From Acidobacteriota bacterium (GTDB lineage Bacteria; Acidobacteriota; Terriglobia; Acidiferrales; UBA7541), in the NCBI GenBank assembly GCA_003154775.1, contig PMES01000110.1, forward strand, positions 1 through 64,000: a stretch of 64,000 bases of DNA. The letters run 5' to 3'. The notes below the pieces were generated by a model. It made no database searches and was not told the DNA's origin. It saw only the letters and a program-made list of their open reading frames with translations. Position numbers and translations under genes: made by a program. Of this stretch, positions 238 through 43,428 are shown piece by piece. Position 1 is the first letter of the stretch; each line of letters starts with the position of its first letter.

Positions 238-299
238 GGGCTCTTCGTCTTCTCTCTGCCTTCATCCGCACCCTTCTTCCTCGCACCAGTCTCGAAACA

Positions 300-640
300 A
301 GTACCTCACAATATCTATTGACAGTTGGTAATTATAGCGATATAATCTCTTATGAATACTCGGTACAAGCCGGCCCGCGCTCCGCAGATCCCCAGCACAG
401 TCACCCTCCGCACCAACAGTGCGCATCGATATCAAAACAAAGGCTTTGCAAATCAAAATAGTCAGTTTCTAACTCCCCTATTTTCACATACTTGCGCACT
501 CTCGCGCCTGCAACCCCTTTGTTTTGACATGCTTCACAAAAACACCCAGGGGGAGGGGGTTACTCCATCGCCAACAGTTCCCTCCCGAATCGGAACGAGA
601 AACATGGCAAGACACGAGGAGGCAGAGGGATCCCTCTCCC
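300..640 (+). repeat. dispersed repeat, copy 1 (promoter plus conserved inverted repeat; putative ncRNA)
   Basis: This region matches 42885-43215 on the opposite strand, at roughly 80% identity by eye over the first 255 bases (300-555). Similarity then falls off, apart from a shared AGAGGG/ATCCCTCT stretch near 630. Both copies start with TACCTCACAAT, carry a perfect -35/-10 pair, and contain an 11-bp inverted repeat (CAAAACAAAGG at 433-443, CCTTTGTTTTG at 516-526). A 154-codon ORF starts at 352, where transcription should begin. Between copies the substitutions are not concentrated in third codon positions, so a structured RNA or mobile non-coding element is likelier than a protein. Confidence 0.7.
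318..346 (+). promoter_or_regulatory. consensus sigma70-type promoter in repeat copy 1
   Basis: TTGACA at 318-323 and TATAAT at 341-346 are separated by exactly 17 bases, a full match to the vegetative consensus. The predicted start site, about 353, coincides with the ATG at 352. The same arrangement occurs in repeat copy 2. Confidence 0.75.
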
Positions 641-42774: not shown

Positions 42775-42884
42775 GGGTGACCGTTTACTTTAGGCTTCCA
42801 CCTCTATTGTACAGGGTGCGATGCGAAGGTACAGCGGGGTGTAGCTTGTGCGCCCCGGTGCGCTGCGCCGGGAGCAGAGGGATC

Positions 42885-43215
42885 CCTCCTCGTCGGACGT
42901 CGCTTCGCCTCTCATCCCAAATCGGGATGAAACTGATGTCACCGAAGGTACCTCCTCCCCCCGGGTGTATTTGTGAAGCGTGTCAAAACAAAGGGGTTGC
43001 GGGTGCAAGAGTGCGCAAGAGTGTGAAAATAAGGGACTTAGAAAGTCGCTGTTTTGATTTATAACGCCTTTGTTTTGATACCGATGCGCATTGTTAGTGC
43101 AGAGGGTGAATGTGCTTGGGACCTGTGGAGCAAGGGCGGACTTGTGCCGAGTATTCACAATGCATTATACAGCACTATTTACTAATTGTCAATAGACATT
43201 GTGAGGTACTAGACC
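42885..43215 (-). repeat. dispersed repeat, copy 2 (inverted relative to copy 1)
   Basis: Reading the minus strand from about 43213, this copy repeats the order of copy 1: TACCTCACAAT, a perfect -35/-10 pair, a possible GTG start at 43158, the inverted repeat CAAAACAAAGG/CCTTTGTTTTG (43067-43077 and 42984-42994), then a GC-rich tail with AGGGATCCCTCT. The two copies are about 42.6 kb apart in opposite orientation. The 123-codon ORF in it is probably not a real protein. The remaining intergenic bases 43216-43428 hold nothing I can identify. Confidence 0.7.
43164..43192 (-). promoter_or_regulatory. consensus sigma70-type promoter in repeat copy 2
   Basis: On the minus strand TTGACA (43192-43187) and TATAAT (43169-43164) are separated by 17 bases. 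Both boxes are perfect, as in copy 1, although the spacer sequence has diverged, which suggests selection on the promoter. Confidence 0.75.
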
Positions 43216-43428
43216 CCAAACTGGAATGAGGGCCTGGAGGCAAGGAAAGAAAGGCTCTTCTCAAGCTATCAGACACCCGCTCCTTTGGCTTTCCTAACCC
43301 CCAGGTTAAACTCCACAATGATATCCTGCTCACGCGCAACCCGAATTCAGGGCAGAGGATGCGCAATCCGCTGGAGAGTGAAGACTGCCAGAAGTGATGA
43401 CATTCGGCTCATGGGATCGGGGGACACG

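Follow-up and report, generated by a model that had tools for sequence, protein, structure and literature searches.

The window analysed here, a stretch of 64,000 nucleotides, carries two related sequences, and the question is what kind of element they represent. The initial annotation described them as members of a repeat family with a perfect promoter and a conserved inverted repeat, and suggested a structured RNA or a mobile non-coding element. The shared features are indeed exact in both copies. The promoter TTGACA-N17-TATAAT occupies positions 318-346 of the forward strand and 43192-43164 of the reverse strand, and the arms CAAAACAAAGG-N72-CCTTTGTTTTG are found at 433-526 (+) and 42984-43077 (-); each pattern has only these two matches in the 64 kb and none in 100 shuffled sequences. 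An end-to-end alignment with about 84% identity over 261 bases bears out the relatedness of the copies.

Copy 1, which belongs to what is called below the window-type subfamily, spans positions 278-619 (+) according to the profile match and alignments; the range 300-640 given earlier located it correctly, with limits slightly off. A core from 278 to about 559 is common to nearly all copies of the family, and the alignments show 560-619 to be an extension present in many of them. A pattern search places a degenerate 5' palindrome at 283-305 (GCACCAGTCTCGAAACAAGTACC as compared with the genome consensus GTACCAGTTTCGAAACTAGTACC), followed by the -35 hexamer TTGACA (318-323) and the -10 hexamer TATAAT (341-346). 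An ATG located exactly 5 nt downstream of the -10 hexamer opens a predicted leaderless ORF of 154 aa (352-816), assigned from the reading frame and a family-wide signature; it extends beyond the element into the flank. The first arm, CAAAACAAAGG (433-443), lies within an inverted module copy whose 22-nt arm covers 429-450, and a second pair of inverted and direct half-units, AAAATAG...CTATTTT, is seen at 455-484. Two direct modules, matched by model R1 at 469-558, come next: module 1 (CTAACTCCCCTATTTTCACATACTTGCGCACTC...) at 469-508 and module 2 (TGCAACCCCTTTGTTTTGACATGCTTCACAAAAACACCC) at 509-547, the latter enclosing the second arm CCTTTGTTTTG (516-526). The terminal G-tract (549-559) is kept across the family in the alignments. 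All these features are on the forward strand.

Copy 2 was delimited by its profile match at 42893-43232 on the reverse strand, and the flanks outside the profile limits of the two copies are unrelated. Exact patterns place its -35 hexamer TTGACA at 43187-43192, its -10 hexamer TATAAT at 43164-43169 and its first arm CAAAACAAAGG at 43067-43077; the second arm CCTTTGTTTTG (42984-42994; exact pattern and model R1) again lies in direct module 2, and the G-tract is read at 42951-42962. The predicted leaderless ORF in the ORF listing (42790-43158, 122 aa) starts with a GTG, again exactly 5 nt downstream of the -10 hexamer. All of these are on the reverse strand. Other repeated sequences adjoin the copies. 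A G+C-rich hairpin repeat, GGCCTACCCTTTGCGCTTCAGGCAAAGGGTGGG, lies just 5' of copy 1 (208-242), and in several species many other copies have a similar hairpin immediately 5' of them; these hairpins may constitute a second family of intergenic repeats, or else upstream terminators. The palindrome GAGGGATCCCTC, which looks like another dispersed repeat, occurs shortly 3' of both window copies (626-637, and near 42880 on the reverse strand) and recurs near many others.

Family copies were gathered by sequence searches. A search with the repeat in its own genome (taken to be Candidatus Acidiferrum from the name on two loci of a sister species; 4.63 Mb in 150 contigs) identified window-type copies at about 20 places, with 72-90% identity, so that the proposed repeat family proved real and far larger than two copies. 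Model R1, built from the 3' module, has 42 matches in this genome; most of those beyond the window-type places belong to a sister subfamily of about 22 copies with the spacer TTATGCTGAGGGGACGCTGCTCTTGTGCC. Within the genus, 31 of 36 genomes have R1 matches, and outside it weak matches occur in a few genomes. In a second family, f11, of the same class, the repeat occurs in a remote form, with up to 10 copies per genome, built from tandem TTTAGAATCAAGACTTTG modules and with a similar G-tract and a GTACC end. This remote form has stops in all frames and no evident ORF, as judged by eye, so that translation is not universal in the family. In loci of this form (L251, L258, L264-L276 and others, around base 1500), a different promoter-like motif, TTGCAAA...TAAAATAG, and an upstream CTGTCAAG motif were observed. 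Phage and plasmid records contain no match to the repeat and the module pattern is absent from IMG/VR, and a phage or plasmid origin was rejected on these grounds. No paper on this repeat was found in the literature on Acidobacteriota; as far as could be checked, the repeat family is undescribed.

The order of parts within a copy is TTCGAA palindrome, sigma-70 promoter, start codon, variable spacer, modules, A-rich stretch and G-tract. There are one to four modules per copy; they are C/T-rich, 20-40 nt long, of the type CTAACTCCTTTGTTTTCACATTCTTGCGCACTC, and direct or inverted. The 11-bp inverted repeat is an inverted module facing a direct one, and the sister subfamily, whose modules are direct only, has neither this repeat nor its hairpin. 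CUCCUUU, present in many modules, is replaced by CCTGTGTTT or CCTCTATTT in others and is no conserved core, and an sRNA of the anti-Shine-Dalgarno 'cuckoo' type was rejected. The composition of the element RNA, with 36% C and 15% G, differs from that of the flanks (32% C, 27% G). The palindrome consensus with its TTCGAA core has 42 pattern matches in the own genome, some sites being counted on both strands, and its reversed control has none. TTCGAA stands within 70 nt upstream of the -35 hexamer in 40 of 84 copies, mostly 18-26 nt away, as against 0.7% of background windows; the palindrome is operator-like. In four copies from several species (L112, L115, L122 and L146), a sequence resembling a DnaA box, TTTTCCACA, lies directly 5' of the palindrome. 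Two loci, L293 and L303, have solitary 5' ends, consisting of the palindrome and AAATA with the rest of the element absent; in L303, another promoter and then a gene lie 3' of the solitary end.

The start codon at a fixed distance from the promoter was followed in 80 copies representing 19 further species of the genus; the promoter was picked by hexamer score alone, with ORFs disregarded, and 55 of the 80 copies passed the threshold of at least 8.5. An NTG at offset 5 after the -10 hexamer is present in 32 of these 55 promoter-bearing copies, and the next commonest start offset accounts for 10 copies, many of which represent the TTG of TTGTG. The start frame is open as far as the terminal G-tract in 31 of the 32 copies (14 other species), compared with 6 of 32 for each of the other two frames. 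Copies within a genome are related, so raw counts overstate independence, and a test on spacer clusters is fairer: when all 64 start-bearing copies were grouped into 24 clusters with unrelated spacers, the start frame was wholly open in 19 clusters and the others in 4 and 4. The triplet at the module start (consensus TAA) is TAA in none of 15 in-frame cases, as against 11 of 22 out-of-frame cases. Beyond the 3' end of the element, the start frame remains open for a median of 165 nt, little or no longer than the other two (108 and 129 nt). The advantage of the start frame is thus confined to the element, which indicates that openness is selected inside it and not past its end. In the window-type subfamily alone, the excess is modest (14 of 14 open, 9-11 expected, P from 0.0025 to 0.028), and several window-type copies (L008, L012, L043 and L045) have lost the start or the frame. 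Copies of the sister subfamily, nearly all of which are open, have an ATG at offset 9 rather than 5. About 40% of the copies with a passable promoter score have no NTG at offset 5; in some of these the promoter was probably misassigned. Leaderless bacterial genes are marked by a TANNNT box some 12 bp 5' of the start; in three Acidobacteria, they make up 13% of genes on average (PMC3160421). In mycobacteria, leaderless initiation requires an RTG at +1, and this RTG is also sufficient (PMC4633059). The arrangement TANNNT about 12 bp 5' of an RTG is found here, the RTG being 5 nt after the -10 hexamer in both window copies. It seems that evolution has kept the frame of the predicted leaderless ORF open while the peptide drifts.

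Two readings place the function in the gene product. The first is a structured sRNA family, whose inverted repeat would be a conserved hairpin of an RNA acting in trans, the open frame being incidental. The strong and conserved promoter, the identity of the arms in most copies, the fold of copy 1, which is somewhat better than its shuffles (z -2.26), and the remote form in the second family, with no evident ORF, are in accordance with this. However, the conserved pairing claimed in the initial annotation was not supported: in 20 copies, no pair of the 11-bp helix is changed on both sides, and two pairs are broken in three copies, where the 3' arm has become CTTTCTTTTC and the 5' arm is unchanged. 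In a covariation test with random re-pairing, all five measures were reached by about a quarter to a third of the shuffles. RNAalifold prefers another pairing, a 7-bp helix, which shows no covariation either, and the fold of copy 2 is no better than its shuffles (z +0.43). Rfam has no match at the gathering score in the window and 40 loci with related copies likewise gave none for the element, in line with the earlier remark that no known family came to mind. With the missing hairpin of the sister subfamily and the RTG frame kept open, these results make a structured sRNA quite unlikely; an RNA helix was rejected for lack of support from covariation counts and folds. In the explanation preferred below, the 11-bp inverted repeat simply results from modules lying in both orientations and is not a co-evolving RNA helix. 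The description of the element as non-coding also conflicts with a leaderless frame open across the genus, even if selection at the peptide level is not demonstrable. The second reading, that leaderless genes here encode genuine, fast-evolving small proteins, draws on frames that stay open for 45-115 codons inside the element and on the sister subfamily, in which nearly uniform openness is accompanied in most peptides by the ending ..TPLFPLHPRN..PVTPLFPLLTQKQGGGG. The window-type subfamily argues against it: changes are spread over the three codon positions with no bias (1173/1087/1083), and distinct synonymous and nonsynonymous events number 36 and 91, with a neutral expectation of 33.7 and 92.1. 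By these sequence counts, amino acids evolve neutrally in this subfamily. In-frame deletions of 21 nt were considered as evidence for coding; they correspond to the tandem inverted unit of 21 nt and are hence uninformative. Moreover, different copies read the modules in all three frames, the stop codon is not fixed (3 to >1000 nt downstream), and the ORF products match nothing in Pfam or NCBIfam, for which a protein family was rejected. Small proteins are therefore unlikely, if slightly less so than the sRNA.

The other two readings concern the element as DNA. A portable promoter or leader driving neighbouring genes might be suspected from the perfect promoter and from individual contexts. Copy 1 lies upstream of a gene with a PCYCGC motif; ffh and an O-methyltransferase gene flank copy 2, whose ORF ends 15 nt 5' of ffh; and the frame of L016 continues in frame into an ABC-transporter-like gene. 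All 65 copies examined with a simple codon-usage gene caller are intergenic. Their strand is shared by the downstream gene in 36 cases and is opposite to it in 26, which is no significant bias and not the co-orientation of a promoter cassette. In addition, a sister species (G035) has no copy at this site but retains the sequence immediately 5' of ffh, presumably the native promoter of that gene; the remaining intergenic DNA there differs as well. This reading was rejected as very unlikely. Much more plausible, though still short of an even chance, is a MITE-like non-autonomous element whose promoter and ORF are incidental and bring the host no benefit; it is compatible with the explanation preferred below. 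At about 280-340 bp, with about 20 copies and no Pfam match, the element is short, multicopy and transposase-free, as MITEs are; its dispersed intergenic copies have common sharp ends and unrelated flanks, and known MITEs carry sigma-70 promoters and ORFs (PMC10969869). Some copies have orthologues at the same site and others lie where synteny breaks. The suggested mobility is plausible in view of dispersal and of absence from some orthologous sites in a sister species, including that of copy 2, but finds no support in the ends: there are no terminal inverted repeats, only internal inverted arms (three copies), and neither a clean empty site nor a target-site duplication was found at four loci, all in rearranged or repeat-filled intergenic DNA. 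No matching transposon came to light. By itself, a MITE also leaves unexplained why frame openness is limited to the element. Traces of exchange between copies were observed. In a sister species, the two flanks of one copy, L043, correspond to those of two separate copies in the own genome (L004 and L006), which suggests rearrangement by recombination between copies, or misassembly. The orthologues L005 and L045 are near-identical around a divergent middle that spans from the first arm to the second, as gene conversion would leave.

The repeat is real, more than a chance resemblance, and belongs with the promoter-bearing interspersed repeats, among which its leaderless, frame-agnostic ORF is unusual. 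Correia elements of Neisseria, BrickBuilt, QMITE1 and other such repeats or MITEs are also short, intergenic and multicopy, with an internal sigma-70 promoter and in some cases ORFs (PMC10969869). In contrast to Correia, BrickBuilt and QMITE1, the present element has no terminal inverted repeats, its internal modules occur in both orientations, and it combines a leaderless start, a G-tract end and no significant bias in neighbour orientation. Rickettsia palindromic elements are likewise dispersed repeats with an open frame; they encode a conserved peptide and are inserted in frame inside genes (PMC10969869), whereas the copies here lie between genes (65 of 65), with their own promoter and start and a peptide that is not conserved. 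Short leaderless ORFs of mycobacteria share the RTG at the transcript start, which is predicted here, and most of them bear no sign of peptide selection (PMC4633059, PMC9094748). Those are single loci, unlike the present repeat family, in which modules are read in any frame and stops are avoided.

In translation-coupled Rho attenuation, a leader ORF covers a rut-like RNA. The present element would resemble this in having C-rich, G-poor RNA under an ORF whose peptide may not matter; it differs in having no consistent downstream gene, and its Rho dependence is hypothetical. Copy number, architecture, promoter, start position, frame openness inside the element and neutral amino-acid evolution in the window-type subfamily are read from the sequences themselves; transcription and translation of the element are predicted from them. 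On this basis, we favour, as the reading with the better part of the probability, a dispersed intergenic stand-alone transcription unit that is translated leaderlessly, with translation rather than the peptide mattering. RNA polymerase would make a leaderless RNA from the sigma-70 promoter of the element, and the ribosome would start on the 5'-terminal RTG and translate up to the G-tract. Translating ribosomes may shield the C-rich, G-poor, rut-like RNA from Rho, thereby allowing the polymerase to reach the G-tract, and the copies would spread and homogenise by recombination or some mobilising activity. Such shielding, suggested by a composition on which Rho loads, is the simplest, if speculative, way in which translation itself could matter; it would explain why any frame suffices, why there is no fixed stop and why the constraint ends at the G-tract. 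It cannot account for everything, since no ORF is evident in the remote form (f11).

The stricter proposition, that the repeat is selected for being translated and not for its product, so that any frame serves if it is free of stops until the G-tract, is put forward tentatively, as possible rather than probable. If it is true, the function would be translation itself, through Rho shielding of the RNA or by sending ribosomes on into the G-tract. In gene calling, such ORFs are apt to end up as hypothetical proteins, and they will go unnoticed in RNA screens. Should the frame indeed be kept open without selection on the peptide, the repeat would offer a natural test case for effects of translation on RNA beyond the making of protein; the family would then also serve as a ready marker for leaderless initiation and for rearrangement driven by repeats, in a soil phylum that is dominant but largely uncultured.
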